Positions 1,187-7,757 of a stretch of DNA of 14,207 nt are shown here, piece by piece (position 1 is the stretch's first letter; every line of letters starts with the position of its first letter). Below the pieces are notes generated by a model that saw only the letters and a list, made by a program, of their open reading frames with translations, had not been told where the DNA came from and made no database searches. The stretch lies in NCBI GenBank assembly GCA_009838595.1, contig VXRI01000131.1, forward strand, positions 1-14,207. Reading direction: 5' to 3'. The DNA comes from Chloroflexota bacterium. Its GTDB lineage: Bacteria > Chloroflexota > Dehalococcoidia > Lucifugimonadales > JADFKI01. A program made the translations under genes and the position numbers.

Positions 1187-4177
1187 ATGAACCTGCCCCG
1201 CCAAACCGAACCATCCGCCAACAACGCGCTCGCCGAACTGCTGCGCGGCATGCTGCACGCCGCCGACATTCGCTCCGAGAACACGCGCGCCATCGCCGGC
1301 AAGCCCGCGTTCCAGCCGGACATCATCGTCAGCGCGCCCGACCGCGCCCCCGTAGTCGTGGAAGCGGAGTTCATGCCGGCGTACAACGCCGAGCAAGAGG
1401 CGATCGACAGGCTGGGCTTGCGGCTGGCGCAATCCGGCAAGACCATCGAAGCCGCAATCGCTCTGCGCTACCCGGAAGCCGTCCCTGATGCCGCGGACCT
1501 CCACGCTGCAATAGCCGCCGCCCGCCTGTCGTACTGCGTGCACACGCTTGAAACCGAGCCGGGCGAAACCGAGGCAGGCGAAACCGTGCCCGCGCGCAAG
1601 CGCTTTCCCGAATCGGGCTGGCTGGAAGGCGGCGTCTCCGATGTCGCAGACCTTATACGGCTGGTGTCCGTGTCGCAAAGCGCAGTCAACGCCGCGTCCG
1701 CCCTGTTGGAGCGCGGCATTGAGCGCGCCGTGGGAACGCTGGACGACCTCGCGGAAACATCCCCCGTGGTCGTGCGCCAAATCGCGGACGCGCTAGGCAT
1801 GTCCGATGTGCCGCAGACGCGCCGCATGGCATGCGCCGTCATCGCCAACGCCATGGTCTTCCACGACCGCATAGCCGCCATGCACGCCGAAATCCAGCCG
1901 CTCAACCTGCTATGGCGCTCCGACGCGGACAACCCGCAGGGCAAAATCACCCACGCATGGGATGCTGTGCTGAACATCAACTATTGGCCCATATTCGCAG
2001 TCGCGCGCGACATCGTGAACTTGCTGCCCTCGCGTGACGCAGCGCGCATCCTGACCACGCTGCGAAGCACCGCACAGCGCATCAACTCCACCGGCGCATC
2101 CTTCGCGCACGACCTCACGGGGCGCATCTTCCAGCGCCTAATATCCGACCGCAAGTACCTTGCCACCTTCTACACGCTGCCCGCATCCGCCGCGCTGCTC
2201 GCCCGCCTAGCTGTGGAGAAACTGCAAAGCGTCCCTTCACCTTCGACGGGAAAAGGTCGGGATGGAGATGGAAGAACGATAGACTGGGCAGACCCCGCCG
2301 CAATCGCGAACCTCAAAGTCGGCGACTTCGCCTGCGGCACGGGCGCGCTGCTCTCCGCCGTCTATGAGCAGATAGCCAACAAGCACGAACGCGCCGGCGG
2401 CGATCCTGCAGCCCTCCACACCGCGATGATGGAAGATGTGCTATATGGCTGCGATGTGATGCCCTCCGCCATACACATCACCGGCTCCACGCTCTCCGGC
2501 ATGCAGCCCAACATCGGCTATGGCAGCTCCCGCCTGTACGCCATGCCCTATGGCAGGCAGCAGGACGGCTCAGTCGCAATCGGCTCGCTCGAACTGCTGC
2601 AAGCTTCATCCGTGCTGACGCTGTTCAACATGAGCGACCCCGCCCTGCGAACAGGCAGCGCAGGCGCAGAAACCGCTTCGCAGGTCATCGCCGACATCCC
2701 CGACAACTCGTTCGACATCGTGATAATGAACCCGCCGTTTACCAGCAACACCAAGCATTACGATGCTGATGATGGAGTCCTCAATGCTGCGTTTGCAGCT
2801 TTCGATAGCTCAAGAAATGAACAGGACGATATGGCGTCTCGCCTAAAAGAGAAAACTCGGGATACCTGCTATCACGGGCATGCAGGGTTAGGCTCTGCGT
2901 TCGCGGCGCTTGCTCACCGCAAGTTACGCCCAGGCGGTATAGTCGCATTCGTGCTGCCGTTCACCGCAATCAATGGCGCATCGTGGGCAAAGTTCCGAGA
3001 ATTGATAGCAACTCACTACACGGATACAACCATAGTGAGCATAGCGGCAAACGGCAAAGAGATGTCGTTTTCTTCCGATACGGGCATGGCGGAATGTTTG
3101 ATAATTGGGCGCAAACTTGTAACAAACGAAGGGACAAGCCAACGGTCAGAGTTTATTTCACTACGCCGCAAGCCCGCCAACTTTGTCCACGCCTTGGAAC
3201 TTGCAAATGGAATGTCGCACGATACGGAAGTTCGTCAGATTGAAGACGGACCATACGGAGGCAATTCGATTTACTGCGGTGAGGAACTTGCGGGCGAGTT
3301 GCTAATTGCGCCGACTGATGACTATAAGAATGGCTGGGGCTCTGCGCGTATCGCAGACGTATCAGTGGCACAGACCGCGCATGCGTTGTCCAATGGCAAG
3401 CTGTGGCTGCCCACAGATCTTGTTGGGATTGATATGAACATGGCTCAATTGAAGGATGTAGGGCAACGGGGGCTGCACCATGGCTTGATAGCAGTACGGT
3501 CATCTGGTGGCCCATTTGACAGGGCGACACCTAGCCAAACATCAACATATCCTGCCATGTGGAATCATAATAACAAGAACGAGAAACGAATAGTCTGCGA
3601 ACCTGATTCGCAACTGCGAGTCAGGCAGGGCATGGAAGAAAAGGCGGCTACGGTCTGGGCAAGAGCAAGTCGTTCACATCTGAACGCCGAATACACATTT
3701 GGGGCGCAGCCTCTTGGCGTAGCGTTCACCGAGCGAAAATCAATGGGCGGCAGGGTATGGCCTAATGTCCTATTCGACGATGAACAGTACGACTACGCAT
3801 TCGCCGTATGGGGCAACAGTACGCTAGGCTTGCTCTCATACTGGTGGCATTCCAGCCGTCAGCAGTCCAGCAAGGCGGGCATGACTGTAACCGCTGTTGA
3901 GACCCTCCCCATCCTTGACCTCTGCGCGCTGACGGACGAGCAGCACGGCATCGCCAAGGACATCTTCGACGAGTTCCGCGAGCGCGACCTGAAGCCGGCG
4001 TACCTTGCCGACGCCGACCCGAACCGCGCGCTGCTTGACTGGCGCGTCGTGTGCGACATGCTCGGCTTTGGGGAGGATGTGTACGAGGGCGTGCGGCTGC
4101 TTGCGGCGAAGTGGTGCGCGGAGCCGTCTGTGCATGGTGGGAAGCGGCGGCCGAGGAGAGCGCGGCTGGTGGTGTGA
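1187..4177 (+). CDS. N6-adenine DNA methyltransferase, probable Type IIG-like restriction-modification enzyme
   Basis: This 996-residue protein is a gamma-class-like N6-adenine DNA methyltransferase. SAM-binding motif I is DFACGTGALL at residues 380-389 and the catalytic NPPF is at 515-518, in the order expected for HsdM/Type IIG enzymes. Near the N-terminus, Pro44-Asp45 (QPDIIV) followed by Glu59-Ala-Glu61 (VVVEAEF) looks like a PD-(D/E)XK nuclease core, though the last position is Glu rather than Lys, so cleavage is unproven. Residues about 520-900 would include target recognition. This stretch (about 2740-3800) is visibly less GC-rich than both ends. Residues 350-364 (2234-2278) look like a read-through interspersed repeat. 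The C-terminus (LTDEQ to the end) is repeated in fragments downstream. No separate S or R gene is adjacent. A BREX PglX-like role is less likely because no BREX genes are seen. Confidence 0.85.
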   Translation: MNLPRQTEPSANNALAELLRGMLHAADIRSENTRAIAGKPAFQPDIIVSAPDRAPVVVEAEFMPAYNAEQEAIDRLGLRLAQSGKTIEAAIALRYPEAVPDAADLHAAIAAARLSYCVHTLETEPGETEAGETVPARKRFPESGWLEGGVSDVADLIRLVSVSQSAVNAASALLERGIERAVGTLDDLAETSPVVVRQIADALGMSDVPQTRRMACAVIANAMVFHDRIAAMHAEIQPLNLLWRSDADNPQGKITHAWDAVLNINYWPIFAVARDIVNLLPSRDAARILTTLRSTAQRINSTGASFAHDLTGRIFQRLISDRKYLATFYTLPASAALLARLAVEKLQSVPSPSTGKGRDGDGRTIDWADPAAIANLKVGDFACGTGALLSAVYEQIANKHERAGGDPAALHTAMMEDVLYGCDVMPSAIHITGSTLSGMQPNIGYGSSRLYAMPYGRQQDGSVAIGSLELLQASSVLTLFNMSDPALRTGSAGAETASQVIADIPDNSFDIVIMNPPFTSNTKHYDADDGVLNAAFAAFDSSRNEQDDMASRLKEKTRDTCYHGHAGLGSAFAALAHRKLRPGGIVAFVLPFTAINGASWAKFRELIATHYTDTTIVSIAANGKEMSFSSDTGMAECLIIGRKLVTNEGTSQRSEFISLRRKPANFVHALELANGMSHDTEVRQIEDGPYGGNSIYCGEELAGELLIAPTDDYKNGWGSARIADVSVAQTAHALSNGKLWLPTDLVGIDMNMAQLKDVGQRGLHHGLIAVRSSGGPFDRATPSQTSTYPAMWNHNNKNEKRIVCEPDSQLRVRQGMEEKAATVWARASRSHLNAEYTFGAQPLGVAFTERKSMGGRVWPNVLFDDEQYDYAFAVWGNSTLGLLSYWWHSSRQQSSKAGMTVTAVETLPILDLCALTDEQHGIAKDIFDEFRERDLKPAYLADADPNRALLDWRVVCDMLGFGEDVYEGVRLLAAKWCAEPSVHGGKRRPRRARLVV
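2234..2278 (+). repeat. Interspersed-repeat-like insert inside the methyltransferase
   Basis: This stretch encodes the low-complexity peptide PSPSTGKGRDGDGRT at residues 350-364, just before motif I. At base level its core gggaaaaggtcgggatggag matches about 12 of 20 bases of the minus strand of the intergenic palindromic repeat near 13222-13250, including the shared GGT..GG.TG pattern. It is therefore read here as a decayed interspersed repeat kept in frame. A natural linker of biased composition is the alternative. Confidence 0.4.
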
Positions 4178-4245
4178 TGGGGGGAGAAGGCGAAGTAGAG
4201 AATGCGATTGCGCTAGAGGTTTAGAACAGTGCCAGAGGCATAGAA

Positions 4246-4551
4246 TCAGAAATCTAAGTATAGTGTAGGTTCGGGCAATCTTTCCACATAGCGCATTCTT
4301 ACGATAGTACCGTCAAATGTGTACCATATTCGTAATGCAGGAACTCCGTCATGAATCAGTCGGTATAAGTTTGAACCCCTCACACGGTCAAGCTTTGTAG
4401 GAATTCGGGCGATGATAAACTCAATACCAACTAAACGATTGTCGCGCGCTATTGGATCCGGTTCGATTTTGGCGAACTCTTGCTCAAATAATTCGTCGTA
4501 AACCACCTCATAGGGGATAGCTGCGTATATTGGATTGTCGCTACCATCCAT
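4246..4551 (-). CDS. Small protein partner of Panacea antitoxin, putative RelE/ParE-like toxin
   Basis: The gene encodes 101 residues and starts inside the end of the upstream Panacea-domain gene, overlapping it by 11 bases, so the two are probably translationally coupled. Residues about 59-91 (SNLYRLIHDGVPALRIWYTF, then IVRMRYVE) alternate like the last beta strands of RelE/ParE-type toxins, with an LYR.I..G..R..Y-like pattern. I cannot identify a catalytic set. Panacea-domain genes are known to sit beside many unrelated toxins, so the toxin role rests on position plus this weak fold resemblance. Base composition is low in GC compared with the metabolic genes on the right, suggesting acquired DNA. 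It could instead be an accessory protein. Confidence 0.55.
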   Translation of the reverse strand: MDGSDNPIYAAIPYEVVYDELFEQEFAKIEPDPIARDNRLVGIEFIIARIPTKLDRVRGSNLYRLIHDGVPALRIWYTFDGTIVRMRYVERLPEPTLYLDF

Positions 4552-5101
4552 GCTTTTTCATCAACTCCAATCCATGAGCATTTTCAAATTCGTCCATTGG
4601 AGGATTTTCAACAAAAACAGTGGAATATGGAATTGAAACATATTCTCCTGATTGCTCGCCCTCTGCCGTAGCAGCTTGCCAACCCAAGAATATGTGCGAA
4701 ATCTCGCTGGTTTCATCAGCGTTATAGCCGCGCAAAATGTCAATGACTTTGTCAACTAACGCTATCTCACTAGCCGAGAAAACATCGTAGTCAGGATCTC
4801 TTAACGCTATGGTGCGGTGCTGCCGCCGTTTAGACAGAGATATATCCCCATCCGCTATCATCTGGTCTCGAACAGGCAACAACCTACGCGGCGCCGGCCC
4901 GTAAGGCAATGCAAAGTAGTCAGATCCTGTGATAGGCTTGCCATTTGTCTTATATGCCAAAAAGTCTGAAAAAAACAGGATTTTATTTAGCTTAGTCGCA
5001 TTATAGTAAAGGTCATTCTCACACTTCTCGGATATGTAAACTATCAACTCTCTGAACTTTTTCTCGTCGTAGGTTGGATGCAAATCGTGTGCCATAATCA
5101 T
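4541..5101 (-). CDS. Panacea (DUF4065/SocA-like) domain antitoxin
   Basis: The 186-residue product has the hallmark of the Panacea domain: KLNKILFFSDFLAY at residues 37-50 followed by ITGSDYFALPYGPAP at 57-71. The family includes SocA, an adaptor that targets its toxin for proteolysis, and PanA antitoxins that neutralise many different toxins directly. The segment after residue 80 is helical and ends close to the overlapping partner gene. Two starts compete: ATG at 5101 and ATG at 5095. The purine-rich GAGGAAGG is better spaced for the one at 5095. The upstream gap holds a candidate operator and weak promoter, consistent with autoregulation, although no DNA-binding domain is obvious in either protein. 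Confidence 0.85.
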   Translation of the reverse strand: MIMAHDLHPTYDEKKFRELIVYISEKCENDLYYNATKLNKILFFSDFLAYKTNGKPITGSDYFALPYGPAPRRLLPVRDQMIADGDISLSKRRQHRTIALRDPDYDVFSASEIALVDKVIDILRGYNADETSEISHIFLGWQAATAEGEQSGEYVSIPYSTVFVENPPMDEFENAHGLELMKKHGW

Positions 5102-5173
5102 CCTTCCTCTAAAAAGTTATGAGGCCTCGTCAATTAAAAAGGATATATGTTCTCACACTCTTGTGGTAAATCT

Positions 5174-5203
5174 AGTTTAGCACCTATCCATTGGATGCGC
5201 CAA
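5174..5203 (-). promoter_or_regulatory. Candidate promoter and operator of the Panacea pair
   Basis: On the minus strand a -35-like TTGGCG (5198-5203) and a -10-like TAAACT (5174-5179) are separated by 18 bases; each matches four of six consensus positions. Between them lies the perfect inverted repeat ATCCA-T-TGGAT (5186-5196), placed where a repressor would block RNA polymerase. The promoter assignment is weak; the palindrome is plainly visible. Confidence 0.3.
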
Positions 5204-5211
5204 TAAACTAA

Positions 5212-5385
5212 CGACGGCACCGCCCCGAACCGCACGCTGCTGGACAGGCGCGTTGTCTGCGACATACTGGGCTTTGGGGAAGATGTGTATCGCGGGGTGC
5301 GGCTGCTGGCGGCGAAGTGGTGCGTGGAGCCGTCGGTGCATGGTGGGAAGCGGCGGCCGCGGGGGCGTGGCTGGTGGTGTGATGG
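5212..5385 (+). pseudogene. C-terminal fragment of a second methyltransferase copy (3' half)
   Basis: This piece encodes PNRTLLDRRVVCDILGFGED and onward through RLLAAKWCVEPSVHGGKRRP. It is closely similar to the last 55 or so residues of the 996-residue methyltransferase, and the similarity begins abruptly near 5212. Near its end it has one base fewer than the full gene (the cgg-ccg to ggctggtggtgtg interval), so the original stop is read out of frame. Even so, the terminal ggctggtggtgtgatgg string is retained. There is no upstream methyltransferase sequence, so it is a dead remnant. Confidence 0.85.
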
Positions 5386-5421
5386 CTATTATTGAAGATG
5401 CGAAGGTGAAGCCATAAAGAT

Positions 5422-5673
5422 GTGTCGCTCTATGCTATGATAAATCAGACGGCTTTCCAAAATGAAGATAACTATGGCGGAAAGAAGCAACTAATTGGCA
5501 GCGCAATTCTTGGAATATCTACCGCACTTGTCGTAATTCCATTGGCGTTACTTTTCGTCATAAGTCTCCCCTTTGGAAGTACGCCCACTTTCATACAGCA
5601 AGTGATTGCTGTGCCCTTGATACTCGGCGCAGTTGGCCTGGGCGACGGCATGGCCGTCGCTAAGGGAAATTAG
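5422..5673 (+). CDS. Small two-helix membrane protein of unknown function
   Basis: An 83-residue frame with two hydrophobic spans, about residues 24-50 and 57-79, suggests a small inner-membrane protein. I do not recognise the family. The start is uncertain: GTG at 5422 is the first in frame, and ATG at 5437 would give 78 residues. Neither has a clear ribosome site; AAGGTGA at about 5404 is rather far upstream. It lies between a methyltransferase fragment and hicB, 34 bases before hicB, on the same strand. Its composition is less GC-rich than hicB. It may be an orphan left by rearrangement rather than a functional member of the toxin-antitoxin unit. Confidence 0.45.
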   Translation: MSLYAMINQTAFQNEDNYGGKKQLIGSAILGISTALVVIPLALLFVISLPFGSTPTFIQQVIAVPLILGAVGLGDGMAVAKGN

Positions 5674-5704
5674 TATTTGCCAACATCGCAAGGGAGCCGG
5701 CCCA

Positions 5705-5962
5705 ATGGCACAATATCAGTTTGACTACATACTATACCCGCCCGAACTATCCACCGATCCCGAAATGTACATGGCGGAGATTCCCGCCCTGCCCGGCTGC
5801 CAAGCATGGGGCAACACCGAAGAAGAGACAATCGAGTTCCTCAAGGATATCGCCGCCAACTTCGTCGAACTCTACGGCGAACTCGACTTGGAACTGCCGC
5901 AAGACGCTATTCCCGGCGACATAGATAGGTCGCGCATCAAGACGGACAAAGTGCTGGTTTGA
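5705..5962 (+). CDS. hicB: HicB-family antitoxin
   Basis: The 85-residue product has the HicB partial RNase H fold signature: a first strand, then PALPGCQAWGNTEEE at residues 27-41, then the helix IEFLKDIAANFVELY. HicB proteins bind and neutralise HicA. No separate helix-turn-helix or ribbon-helix-helix domain is visible at the C-terminus, so operator binding may be weak or use the short tail. ATG at 5705 is chosen because AAGGGAG lies just upstream and the frame before it is not HicB-like. The stop codon overlaps the hicA start, indicating coupling in antitoxin-first order. Confidence 0.85.
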   Translation: MAQYQFDYILYPPELSTDPEMYMAEIPALPGCQAWGNTEEETIEFLKDIAANFVELYGELDLELPQDAIPGDIDRSRIKTDKVLV

Positions 5963-6168
5963 CATACCGAGACTTCACCGCCAAACTGCGACGGTTAGGT
6001 TGCGAGTTCAAGCGAAACGGAGCCGATAGCCACCGCATCCGGTTCAATCCTGCCACCAGAGGACTTACGTCCATACCCGACAAAGGGACAAGAGACCTGC
6101 CAATAGGGACAAGACGCCGCGTCCTCAACCAACTTGGCATATCCAGGCAAGAGTTCAACCGCGCCTAA
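5959..6168 (+). CDS. hicA: HicA-family mRNA interferase toxin
   Basis: The 69-residue product shows the double-stranded RNA-binding-like fold of HicA: an N-terminal helix (YRDFTAKLRRLGCEF), a strand with the catalytic-type histidine at His25 (GADSHRIRF), and the conserved C-terminal block GTRDLPIGTRRRVLNQLGI at residues 43-61. HicA cleaves mRNA when not bound by HicB. The start is TTG at 5959, whose last two bases are shared with the hicB stop TGA, a tight overlap that likely limits toxin translation. The catalytic region reads ADSHR rather than the commoner GSHH, but the key His is kept, so the toxin is probably active. Confidence 0.85.
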   Translation: MTYRDFTAKLRRLGCEFKRNGADSHRIRFNPATRGLTSIPDKGTRDLPIGTRRRVLNQLGISRQEFNRA

Positions 6169-6235
6169 CTTTGAGCGACCATGAAAGAATTCACCAGCGT
6201 CAATCCCCGCAATGCGAAATAACCCTGCCCGACGA

Positions 6236-6374
6236 AGTCAGGCGCGCGCTGACGGACGAGCAGCTCGCCATCGCCAAGGACATCTTCGACGAGTTCCGCG
6301 AGCTGGACTTGCAGCCGGCGTATCTAGCGGACGCCGACCCGAACCGCGCGCTGCTGGACAGGCGCGTGGTGTGA
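6236..6374 (+). pseudogene. C-terminal fragment of a methyltransferase copy (5' half, internally deleted)
   Basis: The frame encodes ALTDEQLAIAKDIFDEFREL and onward through DADPNRALLDRRVV, close to residues about 914-953 of the full methyltransferase, then stops. The point of divergence is informative. The full gene has gcgcgtcgtgtgcgac here and ggctggtggtgtgatgg at its end; this copy has gcgcgtggtgtgaggg. It looks like a deletion that joined the two at the shared gtggtgtg, keeping a stop codon. Open reading frame continues upstream to a TTG at 6171, but no methyltransferase core is present, so it is not functional as an enzyme. Confidence 0.8.
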
Positions 6375-6422
6375 GGGAGGCGCTATTCAATGCCGTCTTA
6401 TTTCACCTATTGTCATCCCACA

Positions 6423-6845
6423 TTAAGGTTTCTGCTGTCCATTGTTCGTTTCAGAAAGCGATTGCAAGCTTTGCACCATCTCGCTCATGTTTTTAGGGTT
6501 TTCAAGCATAGCTTTCAGCAGCATCATGCCAGCCTGATATTGCATACTCACTTTCTCCGGGACTGCCGTTTCCTTCAAAATGGTTGTAACAGTTTCAAGC
6601 AATTGCTGTTGATTCGCAGATACAGTAGTCTCTATGACCGCTGCACTCTTATTTATCTCCGCTAGTACGTCTTTGGTTTTCTCATAGTTTTCTCTGCTCT
6701 CGCGCTCGGCAGATTTACTTATCCAAATCGCGACTATCGCAAGAACAATGGAAACAACTCCTGTCACGAACGAAATCATAGGGAAGTAACTTTCCACGGT
6801 ACGATACTTTCTGAACACCATAGACCTGATATACTGTCCAAGCAT
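6423..6845 (-). CDS. Single-pass membrane protein with coiled coil, unknown function
   Basis: This 141-residue protein (from the ATG at 6845) has one hydrophobic span at about residues 21-43. It is followed by a long charged helix (SAERESRENYEKTKDVLAEI and onward) with heptad-like hydrophobics, then a methionine-rich C-terminal region about residues 100-130. I do not recognise the family. It would sit in the membrane with the helical part in the cytoplasm. The frame stays open upstream past 6900 but there runs antisense to the ribosome site and start of the next gene. A TTG at about 6875 is an alternative start. No clear ribosome site precedes either. It is divergent from the antitoxin gene at 6937. 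The composition is AT-richer than most of the window. Confidence 0.55.
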   Translation of the reverse strand: MLGQYIRSMVFRKYRTVESYFPMISFVTGVVSIVLAIVAIWISKSAERESRENYEKTKDVLAEINKSAAVIETTVSANQQQLLETVTTILKETAVPEKVSMQYQAGMMLLKAMLENPKNMSEMVQSLQSLSETNNGQQKP

Positions 6846-6936
6846 CACTATAACGATTATTTGTTCGTGCGACAAGGCAATTTTGATGTGGGGAAAATGT
6901 AATATATCGCCTATAATCGGGTACGGAGGCAAAAGA

Positions 6937-7359
6937 ATGAAAACCACATTGAAATTAGACGACGACATTGCCGACTTCCTGCAAGAGCAGAGCCATATCC
7001 AGGACAAACCATTGGAGCAGGTCGTCAACGAAACCCTGAGGCTCGGCATAACCCGAATCCCAAAGCGCGTGGACGCCGCCAAGCCGCCGTTCCGCGTCAA
7101 GCCCAACAAGAGCGGCCTGGCTGAGGGCGTGGACCCGCTACACTTGAATCGCCTTATCGACGACCTCGAAGTCGAAAATTATCTCGCATGGAACGAACCC
7201 AACATCAACCCGTCGCCAGACGAGATGAGCCTTGAAGCCGCCTATGGCTCAGTGAAACCGTCGAACATGCCTGAAGACTTCAACGAAATCACCGCAATCG
7301 CCAAGCAAGCCAAAGCGGAAGAGACGGCACAAGAGTTGAACGACGAATGGAATTATTAG
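6937..7359 (+). CDS. Composite VapB-type antitoxin (ribbon-helix-helix plus second antitoxin-like tail)
   Basis: Residues 1-37 (MKTTLKLDDDIADFLQEQ and onward) form a ribbon-helix-helix DNA-binding domain. Residues 51-83 (PFRVKP, GLAEGVDPLHLNRLIDDLEV) match the usual end of DUF2191-type antitoxins, which normally stop there at about 75-85 residues. This protein continues to 140 residues. Residues about 97-135 (AAYGSVKPSNMPEDF, then a charged helix) resemble the toxin-binding tail of AbrB-type VapB antitoxins. It probably binds its own promoter and neutralises the PIN toxin it overlaps by 13 bases. ATG at 6937 is chosen because GGAGG lies eight bases upstream; earlier in-frame starts lack this. 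Confidence 0.75.
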   Translation: MKTTLKLDDDIADFLQEQSHIQDKPLEQVVNETLRLGITRIPKRVDAAKPPFRVKPNKSGLAEGVDPLHLNRLIDDLEVENYLAWNEPNINPSPDEMSLEAAYGSVKPSNMPEDFNEITAIAKQAKAEETAQELNDEWNY

Positions 7360-7757
7360 ACACCAACGTCATCCTCCGCTACCTTACTAAAGACGATGAA
7401 GCCAAAGCCGAGGCATGTTACGAACTGTTTGAGCAGGCAAGGCAGGGCGACAAAGCACTCTTTACCTGCGAGGCAATTATTGCGGAAGTCGTATATGTCC
7501 TCTCTTCCCCAAACCTATATCAACTTAGTCGCAATGACATCAGGGCGCGCTTGCTGCCCATAGTCTCATTACAAGGCTTGAGAATACCTAACAAATCCAT
7601 ATACATCCGCGCACTAGACATCTATGTTTCTCATCCACAACTGGACTTTGAGGACGCAATCGCGGTGTCGTATATGGAACGCATCGGTCTAACGCAGATT
7701 GTGAGCTACGATAGAGATTTCGACCGGATTGAGGACATCGAGCGCATTGAGCCATAA
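7347..7757 (+). CDS. vapC: PIN-domain ribonuclease toxin (VapC-like)
   Basis: The 136-residue product is a complete PIN domain. The acidic residues that hold the metal ions are all present: Asp5 in LLDTNVILRYL, Glu47 in IIAEVVYVL, Asp100/Asp103 in LDFEDAIAV, and Asp122/Asp124 in SYDRDFDRI. PIN toxins of this kind cleave tRNA or rRNA and are held inactive by the antitoxin. The gene begins inside the 3' end of the antitoxin gene, overlapping 13 bases in a different frame, so it is probably translated by coupling. Nothing looks truncated. The exact RNA target cannot be told from sequence. Confidence 0.85.
   Translation: MELLDTNVILRYLTKDDEAKAEACYELFEQARQGDKALFTCEAIIAEVVYVLSSPNLYQLSRNDIRARLLPIVSLQGLRIPNKSIYIRALDIYVSHPQLDFEDAIAVSYMERIGLTQIVSYDRDFDRIEDIERIEP

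Follow-up and report, generated by a model that had tools for sequence, protein, structure and literature searches.

Apparent exchange of a specificity block between conserved flanks in a putative single-chain Type IIG-like enzyme family of Chloroflexota

The DNA analysed here, referred to throughout as the window, is a whole contig of 14,207 nucleotides (GenBank VXRI01000131.1, our C117) from a Chloroflexota metagenome-assembled genome (MAG) of 2.42 Mb in 421 contigs that is 80% complete. Our subject is one gene in it, which encodes a protein of 996 amino acids best read as a putative stand-alone Type IIG-like restriction-modification enzyme, together with the history of its specificity region and two fragments of its 3' end that lie downstream. 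The gene and its parts are listed below.

1187..4177 (+): Type IIG-like gene, 996 amino acids, uninterrupted open reading frame (ORF), Pfam Eco57I match at residues 419-619
1187..1666 (+): N-terminal nuclease-like domain, residues 1-160, alpha/beta
1667..2743 (+): backbone, residues 161-519, helical domain and first half of the methyltransferase (MTase) up to motif IV, NPPF
2744..3916 (+): putative exchangeable specificity block, residues ~520-910, second MTase half and target-recognition domain (TRD), low GC at third codon positions (GC3)
3542..3613 (+): conserved linker within the TRD, residues ~786-809, YPAMWNHN..EKR..CEPDSQ, an additional junction in genome G082
3917..4174 (+): conserved tail, residues ~911-996, three helices, putative 3' anchor of exchange

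The predicted protein runs from the nuclease-like domain through a helical domain to a gamma-class N6-adenine MTase, a TRD and C-terminal helices. FACGTG is found at residues 381-386 and NPPF at residues 515-518 (nt 2729-2740), a TRD-like region extends to about residue 910 and LTDEQ lies at residues 915-919 (from nt 3929), so that the order of a gamma-class adenine MTase (motif I, then IV, then TRD) is present. A structure model of the whole protein (predicted local distance difference test score 84) had BpuSI as its top Foldseek match and also matched the folds of DrdV, CamA and M.TaqI. DrdV aligns from model residue 1 to 961, and the C-terminus of M.TaqI falls at model residue 916, which, with the lack of a recurring neighbour gene at 40 loci (no other cluster of ORFs of at least 80 amino acids was found at more than three of them), places the TRD in the same chain. 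In the nuclease-like domain E31, D45, E59 and E61 are invariant across 50 aligned sequences, and we take the E59/E61 pattern to be the BamHI-like ExE variant of PD-(D/E)XK.

For the family comparison the window protein was combined with the best 119 of 4203 matches (120 proteins, 7140 pairs), and identities were compared over residues 60-510 (the N half, N) and 525-905 (the block, T). Pair identities correlated at 0.87 between parts of N and at 0.81 between parts of T, as against 0.43 between N and T. Seventy pairs, drawn from 30 proteins, combined N above 0.9 with T below 0.6, and among pairs 95-100% identical in N the identity of T fell as low as about 0.52 (5th percentile). When discordance was defined as identity above 0.93 at residues 300-480 and below 0.60 at 650-830, 97 of the 7140 pairs (43 proteins) were discordant; the 5' breakpoint lay at residues 515-530, just past NPPF, in 71 of the 97 (median 520). 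The tail was more than 0.8 identical in 76 of these pairs, 44 of which had the 3' breakpoint at residues 900-925 (median 907), and in part of the discordant pairs it lay near 782-786, by the TRD linker. A typical profile is that of P0021/P0118, where identity in 20-residue steps is mostly 0.85-1.0 up to NPPF, mostly 0.2-0.65 after it and 0.8-0.95 past residue 920. The backbone (residues 161-519) moves together with the N-terminus as a single block.

Phylogenetic analysis of 148 rows (155 minus seven partial or broken ones, with one gene in twice) gave the same picture. Three classes of residues 525-640 were scored (98, 40 and 6 rows, four rows of smaller classes being excluded), and fitting block class to the N-half tree took 25 changes, where its own tree takes a minimum of 2, and 100 shuffles of the labels required at least 36 changes. 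Conversely, clusters of residues 40-250 (k = 7-12) needed 8-13 changes on the tree of residues 260-510, which is near the minimum, and 16-29 on the tree of 525-640. With other class cut-offs, seven classes of 525-640 gave 29 changes, and residues 645-775 gave 24 changes with 11 classes and 23 with 14; residues 815-905 formed a single class only and are hence uninformative. It should be noted that neither the pair counts nor the change counts are numbers of events, as the pairs are not independent and the trees are FastTree trees. TRD homology groups in this family are decoupled from the remainder of the gene, and the sequence comparisons strongly indicate that the specificity block is exchanged while the flanks on either side of it are conserved. 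This is what a sequence-only reading of the window had proposed, namely that conserved flanks surround a divergent specificity block exchanged after NPPF and before LTDEQ, and decoupling, breakpoints and the approximately unbiased (AU) tests described below all agree with it.

Genome G082, from the same order as the window and assembled as one 2.75-Mb contig, appears to hold the outcome of such exchange within a single genome: three close copies (a, b1 and b2, the last two in tandem) have near-identical ends and different middles. Copies a and b2 are 0.97 identical in N, 0.99 at residues 250-510, 0.98 at 525-650, 0.99 at 650-830, 0.59 at 830-910 and 0.97 in the tail; for b1 and b2 the corresponding values are 0.99, 0.98, 0.52, 0.49, 0.86 and 0.97. 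At the DNA level, in steps of 60 bases, the N half is 90-100% identical from about codon 33 and identity is about 50% directly after motif IV, the tail being 93-100% identical up to its last ~14 codons. One switch point is at motif IV, a second falls in the linker around residue 800 and a third precedes the tail. An AU test rejects a shared block clade for two of the copies (p 2e-5). A pair with differing blocks (identity of 0.63 or less at 525-650) was found in five of eight multi-copy genomes (G200, G082, G185, G033 and G002) and in none of the other three (G081, G192 and G195), and the blocks of P0013 and P0034, both on a 38,654-base contig (probably the same one), differ as well (0.53). 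The expected paralogues, with the first 515 and the last 90 residues in common and a different stretch in between, are present in G082; for the window's own MAG, where none was found, see below.

Copy a of G082 adjoins tRNA-Leu(TAA) and lies between imperfect 31-base direct repeats (L103:4340-4425, around 4470 and 7570); the sole third match to the repeat found in G082 is between b1 and b2 (L104, ~8880). As the overlap of the repeat ends (31 of 210 bases) could arise by chance about once in three by a rough estimate, it is only a lead. Strict Campbell integration was considered and rejected: the flanks fit, but the inner two crossovers fail to coincide; a later conversion is needed because b1 and b2 share residues 830-910 (0.86) and a differs there (0.59). 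This genome has another tandem duplication elsewhere (L146:2715-9318; G082:C1 ~284.7-291.3 kb), of an MTase about 40% related; its two 3.3-kb units are 97.1% identical and include one 90-base patch at 82%. The gene might itself be a small mobile unit, circles of the gene and a ~210-base spacer excising and re-entering a resident copy by a single crossover, with tandem hybrids later resolving into a new combination of ends and middle and the short free tails of the order as scars, but we consider this improbable.

The window's own gene has evidently taken part in block exchange. It is 0.88 identical to P0005 in the N half, 0.51 in the block and 0.90 in the tail, and against P0002 the drop comes later, at residues 701-850 (0.54-0.68). 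The three form a single N-half clade (Shimodaira-Hasegawa-like approximate likelihood-ratio support 99), yet the same clade is rejected in the block (log-likelihood difference 240, p-AU 0.0005, in a test on 28 chosen rows with the tested group picked after the identities were seen). In G002, a congener with the same locus, one neighbour protein is 97% identical and nothing upstream is alignable; because the gene is 73% identical at the nucleotide level against 88-95% for the downstream DNA, the whole allele, and not just the block, turns over. For the other three congeners the gene had no match in the corresponding stretches read, nor on those contigs in a protein search. Carriage of close relatives on phages or plasmids was not found; the searches turned up only distant ones, on seven viral contigs (25-37% identity, three of the relatives full length, searched with two peptide patterns) and six plasmids (27-36%). 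As L159, L160 and L161, which carry the full-length relatives (36-37%), are classed as viral, distant members of the family may travel on phages.

The specificity region of the window gene is also distinct in composition. The GC content in 150-base windows is 0.60-0.69 over residues 1-500, 0.46-0.58 over 501-900 and 0.66 over 901-950, and GC3 is 0.80 (residues 1-510), 0.54 (525-905) and 0.89 (915-990), which confirms the earlier observation that about 2740-3800 is poorer in GC than the ends of the gene. It is not, however, evidence of import: of 34 other copies, 31 likewise have a middle with lower GC3 than the N half, and the difference averages 0.13, as against 0.26 in the window gene. Partial copies are counted among the 34, as are multiple copies from one genome and, twice, a single gene (G166, which is L018). 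A dip that is family-wide is ruled out as a sign of recent import; it may come from foreign blocks or from relaxed codon use.

Downstream of the gene lie the two tail fragments, interspersed with toxin-antitoxin-like genes.

4246-4551 (-): 101-amino-acid partner of the Panacea gene, no Pfam match
4541-5101 (-): Panacea (SocA-like) antitoxin gene, PF13274; with its partner it separates f1 from the gene
5215..5385 (+): tail fragment f1, residues ~942-996 and ~25 bases beyond the stop, probable relic
5633..6168 (+): HicB-like/HicA pair, PF21748 (below its cut-off) and PF07927, between f1 and f2
6244..6373 (+): tail fragment f2, residues ~913-956 and then a stop, probable relic

The recurrence of the conserved tail (LTDEQ onward) in two fragments holds up well, with 86% identity between 4009-4156 and 5215-5362, 91% between 3924-4053 and 6244-6373, and E-values of 3.3e-54 and 2.2e-46 for a 280-base tail query, far beyond chance. 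In tail coordinates the fragments overlap by about 45 bases and their order is reversed. They are 86-91% identical to the resident tail and 82-87% to the tail of G002, the resident and G002 tails being 85% identical to each other, and so by sequence do not seem to have been copied from the resident tail recently. The frame of f1 has a stop at 5204 and its earliest ATG, GTG or TTG is a GTG at 5285, within the fragment; that of f2 is open, in a 67-residue ORF from a TTG at 6171. As both hold parts of the tail only, and nothing of the specificity block, the idea that they are working parts finds no support. They are still best read as what exchange, or a second locus, has left behind. Most likely they stem from other copies that once lay at this locus, which is prone to turnover and full of toxin-antitoxin genes, and are relics rather than parts of a switch.

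Three toxin-antitoxin-like pairs occupy 3.5 kb of the window (4246-7757), up to conserved chromosomal genes, where G002 has about 0.8 kb: Panacea with its partner, HicBA and, further along past HicBA and the fragments, a PIN-domain gene with an upstream ORF that we take for its antitoxin by position. Free tails occur elsewhere, in G003, G004, G036, G079 and G187 and, at lower identity, in G075, G080, G231, G050 and G000 (C142), and in G165 and G050 an N-terminal stub is fused to a tail. In G004 (L117:4100-7155) a tail of the window's family begins about 27 bases behind the stop of a 960-residue distant homologue (28%), as though a gene that had been replaced had left its end there. In G036 (L114:1048-4131) a C5 methylase, a DUF4928 gene and Vsr lie between an N-stub (residues 3-44) and a tail, one restriction-modification system having apparently displaced another. 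The stubs and free tails look like what remains when genes at a defence locus are replaced and decay. Just past the free tails, window 6423-7109 (-) and L114:4210-4545 (+) encode products with 45% identity over 87 residues (two-sequence E-value 2e-20).

Could the pattern arise with no exchange at all, the target-recognition region merely evolving faster than the rest? Residues 651-850 do have the lowest mean identity to the window (0.46-0.63), but the first 200 residues are nearly as low (0.54-0.63), and differences in rate should keep rank order, which the weak N-T correlation and the low T of pairs near-identical in N do not. Converse pairs also occur, if rarely (P0006/P0105 and P0021/P0058), the breakpoints are sharp and recurrent, AU tests reject common ancestry of the block, and the 25 changes of block class on the N-half tree contradict it; we regard it as extremely unlikely. 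Nearly as hard to sustain is an active in-genome switch (a shufflon or silent cassettes) with the tail fragments as recombination sites, which would fit the ~45-base core common to fragments and gene, the exchanged middles of the G082 tandem pair and the 31-base repeats around copy a. Apart from the fragments having no block, no free copy of the block stood out among matches in 250 genomes of the window's order, with at most three candidates scored per genome. Nor did these matches point to a silent library of blocks: block-bearing partial ones adjoin their own N part (G033, G075, G188, G195, G197 and G201) or run off the end of the contig (G002 C7, G185 C311, G231 C132, G192 C352, G257 C339 and G013 C87). 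The window has no high-identity pair of inverted repeats of at least 25 nt (the best are 25-30 nt at 70-80%, 1.8-3.5 kb apart), and no recombinase domain was found among those of its ORFs, a part of the total, that were domain-searched.

The fragments might instead be 3' ends displaced by elements integrating inside the 3' end of the gene, which we think unlikely. Many free tails do begin at about residues 940-962 (window f1 942, G004 942, G165 944, G036 940, G187 952, G003 958, G075 945 and G231 962), while N-terminal relics inside contigs stop anywhere (44, 118, 154, 182 and 222), and toxin-antitoxin genes come after the window gene and fragments. The start points nevertheless vary base by base with no common core, f2 is the wrong half, and other tail-only starts lie at 878 (G080, 52% identity), 888 (G050, 37%), 892 (G079, 62%), 903 (G000 C142, 33%) and 969 (G050, joined to the N stub); the tail being highly conserved DNA, detection of free pieces is in any case biased towards it. 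A somewhat better, though still small, chance attaches to the product being an orphan or partner-dependent MTase of the BREX PglX, MADS or DISARM type instead of a Type IIG enzyme. Its scores are far under the curated cut-offs (17.8 bits against 500 for BREX PglX and 22.5 against 720 for MADS MAD2), no neighbour gene is conserved at the 40 loci, and the nuclease-like residues are invariant in the 50 aligned sequences.

Several points tell against block exchange in a Type IIG-like enzyme. The homologues were picked by similarity to the window, the counts apply to that set, and its pairs are not independent; converse pairs with N below 0.75 and T above 0.85 number 1 of 7140. Compared with its syntenic relative the window gene differs throughout, N-terminus included (N 0.55). 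The window's MAG, 80% complete, yielded no paralogue with the same ends (other long matches there are 31-32% identical), and no close donor of the window TRD emerged among the best 120 of 515 matches, the best other one being 66%. A nuclease domain we infer from conserved residues and the whole-chain fold match, but in a second set of 31 sequences, where D45 and E59 are invariant, E61 is absent from one row (L137), and superposition on BpuSI over the whole chain is loose (template modelling score 0.34/0.38, root-mean-square deviation 10.8).

Block exchange nonetheless remains our preferred explanation: very probably this is a family of single-chain Type IIG-like enzymes in which the block of residues ~520-910 is replaced by homologous recombination, the fragments in the window most likely being relics. 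Decoupling, breakpoints and the G082 copies are seen in the sequences themselves; homologous recombination as the mechanism, a changed target motif and cleavage we infer. The original proposal of recombinational exchange stands for the history of the family and of the window gene, while the GC dip and the fragments do not serve as its local proof. In the mechanism we envisage, a nuclease-like domain, an N6-adenine MTase and a DNA-reading TRD would be joined in one chain, and the block would be swapped between alleles or paralogues via conserved DNA on both sides, the linker inside the TRD permitting partial swaps. As one TRD would aim both activities, a swap should alter cutting and methylation together, in a self-consistent way.

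BpuSI and DrdV, single-chain Type IIG enzymes with restriction, modification and specificity functions, resemble the window protein in whole-chain fold, gamma-class MTase, C-terminal TRD and N-terminal nuclease-like domain. They differ in being only ~11-14% identical, with a loose global superposition, and DrdV was reached by the family profile only at an E-value of 0.0057. A change in the specificity module of the MmeI family alters cutting and methylation jointly, and members are described in general terms as diverging by mutation or domain exchange (PMC4081073); the window's family differs in that natural exchange appears repeated and the block includes half of the catalytic domain. The Neisseria Type III genes modA, modB and modD, with ends more than 90% conserved and a variable recognition domain typically less than 40% identical between alleles (PMC4751487), share its general plan, but are Type III and phase-vary through simple repeats in the gene. 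In Helicobacter pylori and others TRD homology groups are decoupled from the gene, as here, and Type III TRDs recombine at DNA encoding conserved MTase motifs; in the Type IIG case of that literature the two TRDs sit in an S subunit of their own and switch position (PMC3077401, PMC3983042, PMC7379913, PMC4996451), whereas the window's family has one chain. Type I and Type III systems, and Type IIG systems with an S subunit, are already known to undergo such exchange; here it lies within one chain, starts inside the catalytic domain and occurs in Chloroflexota. In a literature search confined to open-licence PubMed Central papers, the titles and abstract openings listed contained neither the window's family nor a case of single-chain Type IIG enzymes in Chloroflexota.

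If this explanation is correct, uncultured Chloroflexota would retarget a one-protein defence by swapping a single block of about 1.2 kb, with other genes unchanged. The junctions after NPPF and before the tail helices would be natural cut points between which half a catalytic domain and a TRD are interchangeable, and would guide both the engineering of specificity and the prediction of motifs from metagenomes. G082, with its three copies, offers a genome in which the process is directly testable.

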